From the NCBI GenBank assembly GCA_913056175.1, contig CAJXLM010000030.1:1-35752 (forward strand): a stretch of 35,752 nt of DNA, written 5' to 3'. Position 1 is the first letter of the stretch. Every line of letters begins with the position of its first letter. The notes under the pieces are model-generated. The model saw only the letters and a list, made by a program, of their open reading frames with translations, made no database searches and was not told where the DNA came from. The translations under genes were made by a program, and so were the position numbers. Positions 1-5,003 of the stretch are shown in pieces. This DNA is from an uncultured Opitutia bacterium (GTDB lineage Bacteria > Verrucomicrobiota > Verrucomicrobiia > Opitutales > Puniceicoccaceae).

Positions 1-96
1 GCCCGCTGGGCGGGCGCACCGCGGGCGGTCCCCGTCGAGGAGGTCGACATCCCCCTCTGGGGCGCCCAGCCCTGGCGAAGGACCATGCTGAAGTAA
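1..96 (+). CDS. C-terminal fragment of an unidentified protein
   Basis: Frame 1 is open from the first base to a TAA at 94-96 and gives 31 residues ending in ...WGAQPWRRTMLK. The gene starts outside the window, so its length and family cannot be judged. The frame has GC-rich third positions like the real genes here and contains no stop, which supports a genuine 3' end. I do not recognise the product. Directly after it begins the long tandem repeat region. Confidence 0.4.
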   Translation, partial: ARWAGAPRAVPVEEVDIPLWGAQPWRRTMLK

Positions 97-146
97 CAGC
101 TTCGGAGTACTGGGGCTTCCGGTGGTTCCGGGGTTCGGGGTGTCGT

Positions 147-430
147 GGGGGATCCGGGGCGTTGCTGGCTCGTGGGCAGGGGAGCGCCTGCGGCGCGGCA
201 TAGGAGTGGGCGGAGGCCCGCGGCAGGGGGTGGGTTCGAGTTCTTCCGGGGAATTCAACCGGGCTGCGGCTTGCGGCGCTTTTCTGCTGGGCCTGCGGCC
301 TATCTCTGCTGCGCTCTGTGGCGCACCCATGCTCTGTGCCTTCGGCACGTCTGGGCCGCGCCTTTCGGTGCCTCCCTGCTCTTCGCTCGTTGTGGTGGCG
401 GGGGGCTGGCGGAGGGTCCGGAGGGTTTTT
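147..430 (+). repeat. Long intergenic repeat, copy 1
   Basis: First of three tandem diverged units on the left edge. It begins GGGGATCCGGGGCG, then has a G-rich half with GGGCAGGGGAGCGCCTG and GGGGAATTCAAC, and then a C/T-rich half with CCTGCGGCCTATCTCTGCTGC followed by ~20-bp motifs of the type GCGCaTCCATGCtGTGCC. The same landmarks in the same order occur on the minus strand at 35376-35633. Several overlapping frames stay open here, but they look like low-complexity Gly/Arg/Pro protein and none is preferred, so I treat this as non-coding repeat DNA. Confidence 0.75.
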
Positions 431-691
431 GGGGATTCGGGGCGCTGCGGGCTCGCGGGCATGGGAACGCCGGCGGCGTGGCAGGGGAGTGGGCGGGGCC
501 GATGGCAGGGGAGCGGGCTGCGGCCCGCTTCATGGGATGGGTTCGGGTTGTTCCGGGAAACTGAGCCATGCAGCGCATTTGGGCGCTTGCCTGCTGGGCC
601 TGCGAGCTCTCCCTGCTCCGCTCTGCGGTGCTTCCGTGCCCTTAGCGGTCGGGGAGTTGGCGCGGGGCGACGGAGGGGGTTGGGGTGTCTT
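431..691 (+). repeat. Long intergenic repeat, copy 2
   Basis: Second tandem unit, beginning GGGGATTCGGGGCGCTGCGGGCTCG. It keeps the order of copy 1: G-rich half, then GGGTTCGGGTTGTTCCGGGAA, then GCTGGGCCTGCGAGCTCTCCCTGCT. It is more diverged and extends into a G-rich linker at 650-691. The offset from copy 1 is 284 bases. Confidence 0.65.
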
Positions 692-889
692 GGGGAGTTC
701 GGGGCGTCGTGGGCTCGCGAGCAGGGGGTGGGTTCGGGTTTTTCCTTTGAATGGATCCCATGCTATGCCTCTTGGCGCATCCATGCTGTGCCCCCGGGCC
801 CATCCATGCCGTGCCTTCGTCGCTTCCCTGCCGCGCCTTTGCCGCTTCCTTGTTCTGCGGCTCGAAGTGGTGGTGCGAGGGTGGGTGGT
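692..889 (+). repeat. Long intergenic repeat, copy 3 (internally deleted)
   Basis: Third unit, beginning GGGGAGTTCGGGGCGTCGTGGGCTCG. About 60 bases of the G-rich half are missing, so GCTCGCGAGCA runs straight into GGGGGTGGGTTCGGG. Its tail (about 768-870) has the clearest short motifs: GCGCATCCATGCTGTGCC, then GCCCATCCATGCCGTGCC, then decayed versions. The unit ends at the stop codon of the minus-strand membrane protein. Confidence 0.65.
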
Positions 890-1471
890 TTAGAGGAGGC
901 GTTCGGCGGCGAGGAAGCCGACGAGTACGATGCCGACGAAGGCGGCGGCGACCCATGGAAAGTAGCGCTCGATCCAAACGCGGGTGTGGTCCCCAAAGAA
1001 GTAGAAAAAGAGGGCGAACAGGTAGAACCGGGCGCCCCGGGCGAGGAGGGAGATGAGGAGAAAACCGAAAAGGGGCATCCCGGCCATGCCGGAGGCGAGG
1101 GTGACGACCTTATAGGGAACCGGGGTAAAGGCACCGACCGCAACAATCCACCATCCATTGCGTACATAATCCTCCTGGAGGGAGGCGGCCTCCGCCTGGA
1201 GATTGTAAACGGAGAGGATCCATTGTCCGAGGGAATCCATGAGCCCGTAACCGATGCCGTAGCCCACCAGGCCTCCCACCAGCGATCCGACAAGGGCGTA
1301 GGTGGCGATGGAAAAGGAGCGGCGGCGATCCGCGAGCATCATGGGGATCATGAGGATGTCGAGAGGGATCGGATAGATGAAGCTCTCGAGCAGGCAGACC
1401 AGAGTGAGCCACCACTTGGCATGGCGGTGCGCCGCGAGGGAAAGGGTCCATCGGTAGAGTCGGCGGAACAT
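890..1471 (-). CDS. YqaA/DedA-type inner-membrane protein
   Basis: A 193-residue hydrophobic protein starting MFRRLYRW. It has several membrane segments, a short PIPLDILMIPM stretch after the first one, Gly-rich GSLVGGLVGYGIGYG, and the family block GAFTPVPYKVVTLASG around the middle. That block is typical of YqaA-like members of the DedA/SNARE-associated (VTT) family, which act in envelope homeostasis or lipid transport. An upstream in-frame ATG at 1561 would add 30 residues rich in Ala/Pro that do not look like family sequence, so I chose 1471. No Shine-Dalgarno is visible. It stands alone, divergent from the TRAP operon, and its stop abuts the repeat array. The family is fairly sure; the role is known only in general terms. 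Confidence 0.82.
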   Translation of the reverse strand: MFRRLYRWTLSLAAHRHAKWWLTLVCLLESFIYPIPLDILMIPMMLADRRRSFSIATYALVGSLVGGLVGYGIGYGLMDSLGQWILSVYNLQAEAASLQEDYVRNGWWIVAVGAFTPVPYKVVTLASGMAGMPLFGFLLISLLARGARFYLFALFFYFFGDHTRVWIERYFPWVAAAFVGIVLVGFLAAERLL

Positions 1472-1657
1472 GAAACCGGGAGCGCTTATAGGGAGAGGAG
1501 GAGGAATGGACGCGCAAGCGGATTCGGTTCGAGGCAAAGCAGGCGCTGCGAGGGCTCCCAAAAAGAGCTTATCTCCCGTTTCCGGCCAGATCCCTCGGAG
1601 TGTTCCGAACTCCCGGACAAGCCGGGCCGTACCGCCGGAAGAGGCGTGGGGCTCCCC

Positions 1658-1822: not shown

Positions 1823-2899
1823 ATGATCCCCATGAAACGACTCCTCCCCTTCCTGCTCGCCCTTCTCGCGGTGGGCACCTTTTCCCTCGACGCCCAGGAA
1901 CGAGTCCGCTGGAAGCTCGCGATGACCTGGGGTCCCACCCTCTCCCCCTTTGTGGACGCCGTGGAAGAAATGGCCTCCATGGTCGAGGAAATGAGCGGGG
2001 GCAACTTCGTCATCCGCATCGACGCCTCCAACAAGCACAAGTCCCCCTTCGGCGTCTACGACATGGTGAAGGCCGGCCAGTACGAAATGGGACACTCCGC
2101 TTCCTATTACTACAAGGGCAAGAACATCGCCTTCCAGCCCCTCACCACCATGCCCTTCGGCATGACCGCCCCCGAGCAGTACGCCTGGTTCTACTACGGA
2201 GGCGGCATGGAGCTGATGGAAGAGGCTTTCCGTCCGGAGGGTCTTCTCGCCTATCCCGGGGGCAACACCGGGAACCAGATGGGCGGCTGGTTCCGCACGG
2301 AAATCAACGGGCTCGAGGATCTCGAGGGCCTAAAGATGCGGATCCCCGGTTTTGCCGGCGATGTGTTCTCCGAGCTCGGGGTCACCGTGACGAACATTCC
2401 CCCCGGTGAGCTCTACACCTCCCTTGAGCGAGGCACCATTGATGCCCTCGAGTGGGTCGGGCCCGGCATGGACATTAAAATGGGTTTCCACAAGATCGCC
2501 CCGTACTACTACACCGGCTGGCACGAGCCCGCCACCGAGCTCCTCTACCTCGTCAACGAGGACGAATTCAACGACCTGCCGGAGAACTACCAGGCGATGC
2601 TGGTAGCGGCGATGAAGTTGTCCTCCTACAACATGTACGCGGAGAACTACCACATGAGCGCGGTGGCCTGGCGCGAGATGGCAGAGGAATTCCCGAACAT
2701 CGAAGTGCGCACCTTCCCGGAAGAAGTGATCGCGGCCATGAAGGAGGCCAACGAAGAACTCATTGCGGAGGCGAAGCAGGAGAGCCCCCTCTTCGCGAAG
2801 ATCCTCGAGTCCCAGGAGGAGTACATGGAGGGCGTTCGCGCCTGGACGAAGATCTCGGACTACGACTACCTGACCGATAACCTTGAACCCGAGGACTGA
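1823..2899 (+). CDS. dctP: TRAP transporter periplasmic substrate-binding protein DctP
   Basis: A 358-residue protein with an N-terminal signal peptide (about residues 1-24, KR then LLPFLLALLAVG, ending near SLDAQ). The mature part is a DctP-type binding protein: WKLAMTWGP at its start, the family block GLKMRIPGFAGDVFSELG, PPGELYTSLERGTIDALEW with the following VGP, and YYYTGWHEPATEL. The EWVGP and GWHEP signatures resemble the TakP/mannitol-chloroaromatic branch, whose characterised members bind 2-keto or organic acids. The substrate is therefore likely a carboxylate, but it is not proven. It is the first gene of a dctP-dctQ-dctM set. ATG at 1823 or 1832 are both possible; neither has a Shine-Dalgarno. 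Confidence 0.93.
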   Translation: MIPMKRLLPFLLALLAVGTFSLDAQERVRWKLAMTWGPTLSPFVDAVEEMASMVEEMSGGNFVIRIDASNKHKSPFGVYDMVKAGQYEMGHSASYYYKGKNIAFQPLTTMPFGMTAPEQYAWFYYGGGMELMEEAFRPEGLLAYPGGNTGNQMGGWFRTEINGLEDLEGLKMRIPGFAGDVFSELGVTVTNIPPGELYTSLERGTIDALEWVGPGMDIKMGFHKIAPYYYTGWHEPATELLYLVNEDEFNDLPENYQAMLVAAMKLSSYNMYAENYHMSAVAWREMAEEFPNIEVRTFPEEVIAAMKEANEELIAEAKQESPLFAKILESQEEYMEGVRAWTKISDYDYLTDNLEPED

Positions 2900-3062
2900 G
2901 CCCACCTGACCGGACCCTTCGCGCCAACAGGCTGAGACTCCCCGAGCCCTCCGGAGGGGTCGCGATGGCTTCCTTCTTCCCGGAAGCGAGGCCTCGCGGC
3001 CCCTTTTGCTTGGCCGCCCAGCGGACCAAGCGGCAACTTCGGCCAGACGAGTTTACCGATCC

Positions 3063-3596
3063 ATGCTTGACCGCCTAGACCGCCTCTATTCACGGCTCTC
3101 CGACTGGCTCGGCTGGGTGACTGCAATCCTCCTGGTCCTGATGACCCTGAACGTGTTTCTGGATGTGGTCCTGCGCTACGTCTTCAACACCGGGAGCATC
3201 GCCCTGCAGGAGATGGAGTGGCACCTCTTCGCAGTAATGTTCCTGCTCGGAATCTCCTACGGCTTGAAAGAGGACAGCCATGTACGGGTCGACGTCATCT
3301 ACGACCAGCTCGCCCCCCGGAAGAAGGCGGTCATCAACCTCGTGGGCACCTTTTTCTTCCTGATCCCCTTCTCCCTTCTCATCGCGTTCGGCTCGATCAA
3401 CTTCGTGGCGGAGGCCTACGAGTCGGGTGAAGTGAGCGGGGATCCCGGCGGGCTTCCCTACCGCTGGATCATCAAGGCCGCCATCCCCGTCTCCTTTCTG
3501 ATCCTCGCGCTCTCCTCCCTTGGCTTCATCGTGCAGAATCTTCGCCGCTTCCGGGACAACCGGGACCGATCGGGCGAGCATGAGTTCCTCACCTGA
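3063..3596 (+). CDS. dctQ: TRAP transporter small permease DctQ
   Basis: A 177-residue protein with four predicted membrane segments. The first contains WVTAILLVLMTLNVFLDVVLRY, the family-typical block ending in RYVFN. The loop EMEWHLFAVMFLLG and the phrase KEDSHVRVDV are hallmarks of DctQ. It pairs with DctM to form the Na+-coupled transporter that accepts substrate from DctP. I chose the ATG at 3063 because the extra 19 residues from an upstream ATG at 3006 are hydrophilic and not family-like. A 163-base gap separates it from dctP. That gap has a short GC palindrome (GCGAGGCCTCGC) followed by CCCCTTTT, possibly a weak attenuator. Confidence 0.92.
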   Translation: MLDRLDRLYSRLSDWLGWVTAILLVLMTLNVFLDVVLRYVFNTGSIALQEMEWHLFAVMFLLGISYGLKEDSHVRVDVIYDQLAPRKKAVINLVGTFFFLIPFSLLIAFGSINFVAEAYESGEVSGDPGGLPYRWIIKAAIPVSFLILALSSLGFIVQNLRRFRDNRDRSGEHEFLT

Positions 3597-3653
3597 CGGA
3601 ACCGCCGACCCCTACCCCACCCCGCACTCCCCGGAACACGGACCCCTCCCGGC

Positions 3654-5003
3654 ATGATCGGCATCATCATGTTCTTCACAGCCCTTGTGCTGTTGCTCTT
3701 CGGCTTCCCGGTGGCCTTTACCTTCGGTGCCGTCTCCGTGATCTTCGGCATGATCTACGGGCTTGCGGAAGTCCTCCCCTTTGGCGGGACCGTCTGGGAG
3801 GGACTGCAGGAGGGCGTGGATCTCTTCGCCTTCATGCCCTTCCGCATCTTCGCGATCATGAAGAACAAGATTCTCATGGCGATCCCCCTGTTCATTTTCA
3901 TGGGGATTGTCCTGCAGAAGACCCGGCTGGCGGAGCGCCTCCTCGAGTCGATGGGCTTCCTCTTCGGGGAAATCCGGGGGGGTCTCGCCATCAGCACCGT
4001 GCTCGTGGGCGCCCTCCTCGCCGCCTCGACGGGAGTGGTCGGGGCAAGCGTGGTGGCCATGGGAGTCATCTCCTTGCCCGTCATGATCAAGCATGGCTAC
4101 CGGAACGAGCTCTCCACCGGTTCGATCTGCGCAGCCGGCACCCTCGGGCAAATCATCCCGCCCTCGATCGTGCTCATCATCCTCGGGGACGTCTTCCAGG
4201 TGCCCGTCGGCGATCTCTTCCGGGCGGCCTTCTGGCCCGGGATCTTCCTCGTCCTCCTCTACGTCGTCTACATCCTCGCCATCGCGTTCCTGCGCCCCTC
4301 GGTCGCCCCCCCCATCCGCGAGGAAAGCTCGCAGTCCGGCAAAGCCGTGCAAATCCTGCGGGCCCTCCGGGCGATTCTCCCCCCGCTCGTCCTCATTGTC
4401 CTCGTCCTCGGCTCGATCTTCGCCGGGATCGCCACCCCCACCGAGTCAGCGGCCGTCGGAGCCGTGGGCGCCGTGGTCCTCTCCCTCCTCTACCGACAGT
4501 TCTCCTTCCAGCTCGTCTTCAGCGCCGCCAAGGAAACCGTGAAGGTGACCGCGATGGTCTTCGCCATCCTTGTGGCCGCGACGGCATTCTCGATGGTGTT
4601 CACCTACACGGGCGGTGATGCGATCGTCGAGGAGTTCATGCTCAACCTGCCCGGAGAGAAGTGGGGCTTCCTCATCTTCTCGATGATCGCGATTCTCATT
4701 CTCGGCTTCTTCATCGATTTCATCGAAATCTCCTACATCATCGTCCCGATCCTCCTGCCGATCTCGGAGATTCTCGGTCTCAATCCCGTCTGGTTCGCGA
4801 TTCTCATCGCGATGAACCTGCAGACCTCGTTCCTGACCCCGCCCTTCGGCTTTTCGTTGTTCTACCTGAAGGGCTGCGCCCCGCCCGGAGTCTCGACCGG
4901 GCAAATCTACCGCGGGGTGGTCCCTTTCATCCTCCTCCAGGTTCTCGTCCTCCTCCTCCTCACCGTTGTCCCCGGTTTCTTCGGGCTGACGGCCAGTTTC
5001 TGA
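3654..5003 (+). CDS. dctM: TRAP transporter large permease DctM
   Basis: A 449-residue, very hydrophobic protein with about 12 membrane segments. The DctM signatures are all present: FGFPVAFTFGAVS near the N-terminus, MAIPLFIFMGIVLQ, the loop GVVGASVVAMGVISLPVM, AAGTLGQIIPPSIVLIILGD, GIATPTESAAVGAVGA, and LQTSFLTPPFGFSLFYLKG near the C-terminus. It forms the Na+/substrate channel with DctQ. The start at 3654 follows a C-rich stretch without Shine-Dalgarno. The stop codon lies inside a hairpin (5000-5028). Third and last gene of the operon. Confidence 0.95.
   Translation: MIGIIMFFTALVLLLFGFPVAFTFGAVSVIFGMIYGLAEVLPFGGTVWEGLQEGVDLFAFMPFRIFAIMKNKILMAIPLFIFMGIVLQKTRLAERLLESMGFLFGEIRGGLAISTVLVGALLAASTGVVGASVVAMGVISLPVMIKHGYRNELSTGSICAAGTLGQIIPPSIVLIILGDVFQVPVGDLFRAAFWPGIFLVLLYVVYILAIAFLRPSVAPPIREESSQSGKAVQILRALRAILPPLVLIVLVLGSIFAGIATPTESAAVGAVGAVVLSLLYRQFSFQLVFSAAKETVKVTAMVFAILVAATAFSMVFTYTGGDAIVEEFMLNLPGEKWGFLIFSMIAILILGFFIDFIEISYIIVPILLPISEILGLNPVWFAILIAMNLQTSFLTPPFGFSLFYLKGCAPPGVSTGQIYRGVVPFILLQVLVLLLLTVVPGFFGLTASF

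Follow-up and report, generated by a model that had tools for sequence, protein, structure and literature searches.

Tandem arrays of REP-like hairpins behind a multi-copy, HuH-less RAYT descendant in an uncultured Opitutia bacterium

The array locus and the architecture of its units

The window analysed here is a whole contig of 35,752 nucleotides (C30), one of the 84 contigs of a 2.61-Mb, 96%-complete genome of an uncultured Opitutia bacterium, whose best named relatives point to a probable place in Opitutales (Verrucomicrobiota). It opens with the 3' end of a gene that we call RAYT-A, and a tandem repeat array begins right after the stop codon of this gene (Table 1). The remainder of RAYT-A lies upstream, past the contig end, and this gene end had been overlooked in a preliminary description of this DNA, which treated the repeat in isolation. 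On its other side the array is bordered by a convergent gene for a membrane protein with a VTT domain, which is not part of the array element. The genes of a TRAP transporter, DctP and DctM, adjoin the array locus at 1823-5003.

Table 1. Features of the array locus and of the right end of the window.
Feature	Position	Strand	Evidence
RAYT-A 3' end (ARWAGAPRAVPVEEVDIPLWGAQPWRRTMLK, stop codon TAA at 94-96)	1..96	+	tail shared by 19 contig ends (protein identity 97-100%)
Leader from stop codon to first unit, sharp divergence between copies	97..133	+	alignment of 18 copies
Unit 1, full length	134..405	+	nhmmer profile 1-271, E 2e-68
Two forward REP-like elements of unit 1, head GCAGGGGA/GCATAGGA with hairpins GCGCC-TGC-GGCGC and GTGGGC...	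176..217	+	pattern scan, stem covariation
Pyrimidine-rich half of unit 1 with its reverse REP-like hairpins	290..370	+	unit consensus
Unit 2, one forward REP duplicated	417..640	+	two overlapping profile hits
Three forward REP-like elements of unit 2	459..524	+	pattern scan
Unit 3, most forward REPs deleted internally	679..884	+	profile 4-271 over 199 bp
Reverse-hairpin ladder, 22-23 bp, TCCCTGC-type heads at ends	758..849	+	TRF 758-816, 803-849
VTT-domain (DedA-like) membrane protein gene, neighbouring, convergent	890..1561	-	PF09335, E 6e-11
Unit of a second RAYT-A array, right contig end	35386..35647	-	genome self-match and profile
Incomplete unit (reverse-hairpin half), truncated by the contig end	35656..35750	-	C30R profile 158-273

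The array consists of three tandem units that start at about 134, 417 and 679 and end near 884. Copies of an 83-bp core (D1) lie at 131, 414 and 676 and are 81% and 63% identical; those of a 149-bp segment (D2), at 197 and 504, are 74% identical. Three diverged units had already been proposed for positions 147-889, with an internal deletion in the third, and both statements hold. The deletion in unit 3 and the duplication in unit 2 also agree with the proposal that the array is still changing, and what had been seen as a ladder of about 20-bp motifs is the terminal run of reverse hairpins with TCCCTGC at their ends. The open frames across the array had been taken as non-coding, and a coding reading was indeed rejected: among the units found genome-wide, the spacings modulo 3 are evenly distributed (20/22/21), the most-open reading frame is open in no more than 53 of 91 units, and a Pfam search of the long ORFs at 122-1678 and 318-893 matched no family.

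The consensus unit of 265 bp, against about 290 bp for the unit itself, leads from a G-rich entry through forward elements, a centre (TTTTTTCGGGGAATTCAACC) and reverse hairpins to a short exit. There are two or three forward elements per unit, each composed of a head (GCAGGGGA) and a hairpin of 13-16 nt, and four to six reverse hairpins, each of which ends in TCCCTGC, the head reversed. In the consensus as well as in the copies, the forward heads are spaced by 22-25 bp, and the reverse heads then follow. The purine-rich and pyrimidine-rich halves of the preliminary description are therefore real, and they represent runs of forward and reverse REP-like hairpins that share one 8-bp head. In the array this head reads GCAGGGGA or GCATGGGA, not GT(A/G)G.

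The covariation statistic was obtained for the first forward hairpin (F1) only, the set for the second (F2) being a mixture of 15- and 16-nt hairpins. In 23 copies the outer pair of F1 is G-C and in 20 it is A-T, as compared with 8 for A-C and 3 for G-T, and none of 2000 shuffles paired as well. The stem is kept by compensatory change, as is the case for REP stems. A search with a REP pattern of 24 bases, allowing up to 3 mismatches, found 68 matches in the whole genome, 67 of which lie inside RAYT-A arrays, and the reversed control found 0; in the window the pattern scan gave 8 matches, where 0.5 would be expected by chance. The unit is a BIME-like mosaic of forward and reverse REP-like hairpins.

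Genomic distribution and linkage to RAYT-A

Compared with its own genome, the window unit returned 100 reported matches with E values down to 1e-70, the self-match excluded. A profile iterated over the contig ends, 168 in all, gave 146 hits that comprise 91 unit starts in 28 arrays, so that the expectation of many genomic copies proved correct. Together the arrays cover 23.4 kb; they contain up to six units with a median period of 294 bp (range 206-479), and the units diverge by 20-30% with many indels. Nothing similar to the unit was found in 34 relatives, and a shallow search of 371 other genomes of the order, in which two candidates were scored per genome, gave no match.

Every array is located within about 2 kb of a contig end, and 27 of the 28 have the same polarity, from the edge inward. 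Telomere-like ends of a linear chromosome, as this polarity might suggest, were considered and rejected. The arrays lie near contig ends because the assembly broke in the near-identical multi-copy gene that each of them follows. The 3' part of RAYT-A is present at 19 array-bearing contig ends, with the array beginning just after the stop codon, and the 5' part at 26 other contig ends. The stop codon thus stands just upstream in 19 of the 28 arrays, most of the others being cut inside the array by the contig end, and wherever the assembly reaches the gene, the array is directly 3' of it. RAYT-A occurs in about 27 near-identical copies in unrelated contexts; none of these is assembled whole, and no contig carries the two ends of a single copy.

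At the 26 5' ends, a leader of about 80 bp (GGAATATAATGACAGGCTTT...GCTTGAC) is conserved in front of the ATG (for example in L036, the contig end C36L, at about 90-160). The DNA upstream of this leader is unrelated between copies, yet C-rich. Terminal inverted repeats were rejected for RAYT-A, as a search of the array side did not return the leader motif AAAGCCTGTCATTATA, which recurs in front of the gene.

The repeat had been regarded as free-standing and of unknown structure, a view that is not supported, as the array is attached to a RAYT-derived gene that is present in many copies. This linkage places the repeat in the world of REPs, BIMEs and REP-associated tyrosine transposases (RAYTs). 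The earlier statement that no named family has this structure stands insofar as an Rfam search of the window returned tRNA only and no known RNA family for the repeat, but it does not extend to the REP/BIME/RAYT world.

Some loci deviate from the usual layout. At the right end of C39 (L114), a RAYT-A copy and a convergent single-copy paralog (52% identity) flank a RAYT-A array. Two array-bearing contig ends, the left ends of C9 (L032) and C48 (L031), start with what appears to be another transposase instead of RAYT-A; these are probably other insertion sequences beside or inside the array. Tandem arrays with the motif GGTCTGTCCC occur on C10 at 40.3-42.5 kb (L239, 2800-5000) and on C54 (L126, 11230-12700), and in the surrounding DNA examined no RAYT-like gene was detected for either.

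Two further families were encountered. Family B is a second multi-copy RAYT-like family in which AP replaces NP; its 3' ends are found at C14R, C17R, C3L, C62L and others, and its 5' ends at C26L, C22L, C13L and others. At some of its loci, tandem units of about 240-280 bp lie downstream of the gene, and the motif GGTYTGTCCCYC occurs upstream of the ATG and also within these units. Family C, the third, has the same layout, with the motif AAAGCTATGTCCCTTTTA in front of the gene and again at every unit behind it (3' ends C14L, C27L, C53L and C62R; 5' ends C15R, C34R, C3R and C41R).

Ancestry of RAYT-A, lost catalytic residues and selection

The genome contains a single-copy paralog on C19 that shares 72% identity with the longest RAYT-A fragment and can be aligned with RAYTs from related genomes. 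Each of the 16 proteins in this alignment matches NF047646, the RAYT model of NCBI, at E <= 0.01 (best 5e-20), and the proteins of the present genome match it weakly, the paralog with 22 bits at a cut-off of 80. A PDB profile search gave TnpA_REP (4er8) as top hit. An AlphaFold model, which is that of the paralog and not of RAYT-A itself, has a pLDDT of 87.7 and superimposes on 4er8 with a Z score of 12.7 and an rmsd of 2.6 over 149 aligned residues, followed by IS200-type transposases with a Z score of 8.5. RAYT-A is a descendant of RAYTs with a predicted Y1 HUH-nuclease fold.

The best-covered RAYT-A copies and the close paralogs are devoid of the HuH histidines, the catalytic tyrosine and the asparagine of the Y---NP motif. 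At the HuH site, RAYT-A possesses P(T/R)GIQ and the paralogs of the same genome TGIQ, RGIQ or REIQ, where the relatives possess NHFH. At the Tyr/Asn site, AYIDLNPVRAG of the relatives corresponds to RASVQTAPVRAG in RAYT-A, and in the paralogs YIDLNP is changed to sequences of the type (A/S/L/F/H)xQxAP. Both motifs are kept in all relatives of the order that were examined and in nearly all of 39 named loci. In a tree, all RAYT-like proteins of the genome are on one side of a branch with a support of 85, or of 98 without the paralog on C6, which retains the HuH motif and the asparagine and has glutamine in place of the tyrosine. This one-sided position and the intermediate state of the C6 paralog suggest that the catalytic residues may have been lost stepwise within the lineage. 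A Pfam search of the whole genome for Y1_Tnp gave no match, and an intact helper transposase was rejected, as the nearest candidate is the C6 protein with glutamine for tyrosine. Arrays are absent from the C19 paralog and from further RAYT relatives with a single copy, a point against the binding role proposed below.

Selection was estimated from the codons near contig ends, which for the 3' ends of 18 copies gave a dS of 0.18, a dN of 0.0024 and a dN/dS of 0.014, and for the 5' ends of 19 copies a dN/dS of 0.13. The 3' changes that are specific to a single copy are synonymous in 12 cases and non-synonymous in 2, as compared with a random expectation of about 0.37:1. This excess indicates that selection, or purging by conversion, operates on individual copies in addition to an old master lineage, and gene conversion could be the process that homogenises them. 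Despite the lost HuH, Tyr and Asn residues, RAYT-A thus appears to be under strong purifying selection.

Interpretation and relation to known systems

We think that the array may serve a multi-copy, HuH-less descendant of RAYTs as its private REP/BIME and that this protein may bind without cutting, a reading for which we see about even prospects. As the best inference, RAYT-A is a putative binder of the array hairpins. It would still recognize the head-plus-hairpin, like TnpA_REP of E. coli, which recognizes and cleaves single-stranded REP hairpins (PMC3733652, PMC6006769). In RAYT-A the predicted fold is preserved, and the metal ligands and the nucleophile are gone. Its target would be single-stranded array DNA or the hairpin-rich 3' part of the RAYT-A transcript, and binding in a protecting, bridging or autoregulating manner would replace cleaving and joining. 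Array length would change by slippage and by unequal recombination between hairpins. The presence of nearly 30 copies at unrelated sites implies past mobility, for which a purely binding protein cannot account; the spread to about 27 places may have preceded the loss of the residues, or may have involved another active site or a helper outside the assembled part. The wider view that this lineage turned REP transposases into non-cutting hairpin binders, with about 27 selected copies, private array platforms and the parallel families B and C, is possible, and here our doubts slightly prevail.

The same near-identical genes in unrelated contexts, together with the leader conserved before the ATG, would also be expected if RAYT-A and its array were still mobile by means of a non-canonical active site or a helper enzyme, the array being a by-product or the recognition end. 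Families B and C, with their multi-copy and array layout and GTCCCT-type motifs upstream and in the downstream units, fit this as well. However, HuH, Tyr and Asn are all lost, the absence of a Y1_Tnp match from a 96%-complete genome leaves no obvious helper, the dS between copies speaks against a recent burst, and the flanks are wholly different at both gene ends, so that we consider continuing mobility unlikely, albeit deserving attention.

It is improbable that the arrays act only as RNA, in termination or in 3'-end protection of the mRNA of RAYT-A or of the convergent neighbor, with the protein not being a partner: the RNA fold of the consensus is more stable than shuffles (z -3.4) and the first array lies between convergent genes, but a single natural unit folded as DNA reached a z of only -1.7, one terminator would suffice where up to six units are present, and the strict tie to one gene family would be left unexplained. 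The covariation of the stems and the strong purifying selection on the gene make it very improbable that the arrays are neutral remains of REPs decaying after the death of the RAYT, as the divergence and the many indels of the units might indicate. An assembly artefact with chimeric contig ends, for which one could invoke the position of all copies near contig ends in an assembly of 84 contigs, is hardly credible, as the arrays differ in sequence and are followed by unique genes of their own, and a break within a near-identical gene is what short reads are expected to produce.

The putative binder with its private arrays resembles a REPtron (Nunvar 2010, PMC2817692; PMC6006769; PDB 4er8) in the predicted Y1 fold, the recognizable RAYT sequence, the position of the gene beside palindromes with a conserved 5' head, and the BIME-like alternating orientation of the REPs. 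It differs in that RAYT-A is without HuH, Tyr and Asn and in that the arrays are 3' of the gene. Class 2 RAYTs share the Y---NP motif and have a low copy number with low similarity between copies (PMC6006769), whereas RAYT-A has about 27 near-identical copies per genome. TIRYTs and TIRtrons (PMC3733652) likewise combine RAYT-like genes with repeats other than GTAG REPs, but they keep HUH and Tyr and have single inverted repeats instead of long arrays. HUH and Tyr are reported to be conserved in all RAYTs and TIRYTs that were aligned in PMC3733652, and the tree in PMC6006769 was restricted to sequences that carry the HuH and Y motifs, so proteins like RAYT-A would have been excluded; in the openly accessible literature, no report of HuH-less RAYTs was found.

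With REPs and BIMEs, the array has in common the 20-25 bp of head and GC-rich imperfect palindrome, the clustering of both orientations, the covarying stems, and the regular spacing and alternating orientation of BIMEs. Unlike these, it has the head GCAGGGGA instead of GT(A/G)G, it is confined to the arrays of one gene family and not scattered between genes, and it possesses a fixed higher-order unit of about 290 bp. REPINs also have inverted REPs that flank a short centre, but they are single dispersed doublets, whereas two to three forward and four to six reverse REPs form a tandem unit here. The locus therefore lacks three features that define RAYTs (HuH, Y---NP and low copy number) and two that define REPs (the GT(A/G)G head and dispersal); by its ancestry it is a descendant of a REPtron that is HuH-less and multi-copy and has private arrays.

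The host role of RAYTs has remained open, as it is difficult to disentangle cleavage, the spread of REPs and the benefit to the host. A nuclease-less RAYT descendant that is constant copy by copy beside a maintained hairpin array would separate binding from cutting, and makes the idea that RAYTs are kept for REP binding directly testable. REPs would then not need to be dispersed, RAYT-like genes could reach a high and selected copy number, and gene and array, if this is true, would form a self-contained device.

An H-x3-W motif near the C-terminus (RRHRARWAG; in alignment A1 at residues 263-270 of sequence 1), which is absent from the canonical relatives aligned, is common to the HuH-less proteins of this genome, to families B and C and to the C6 paralog.
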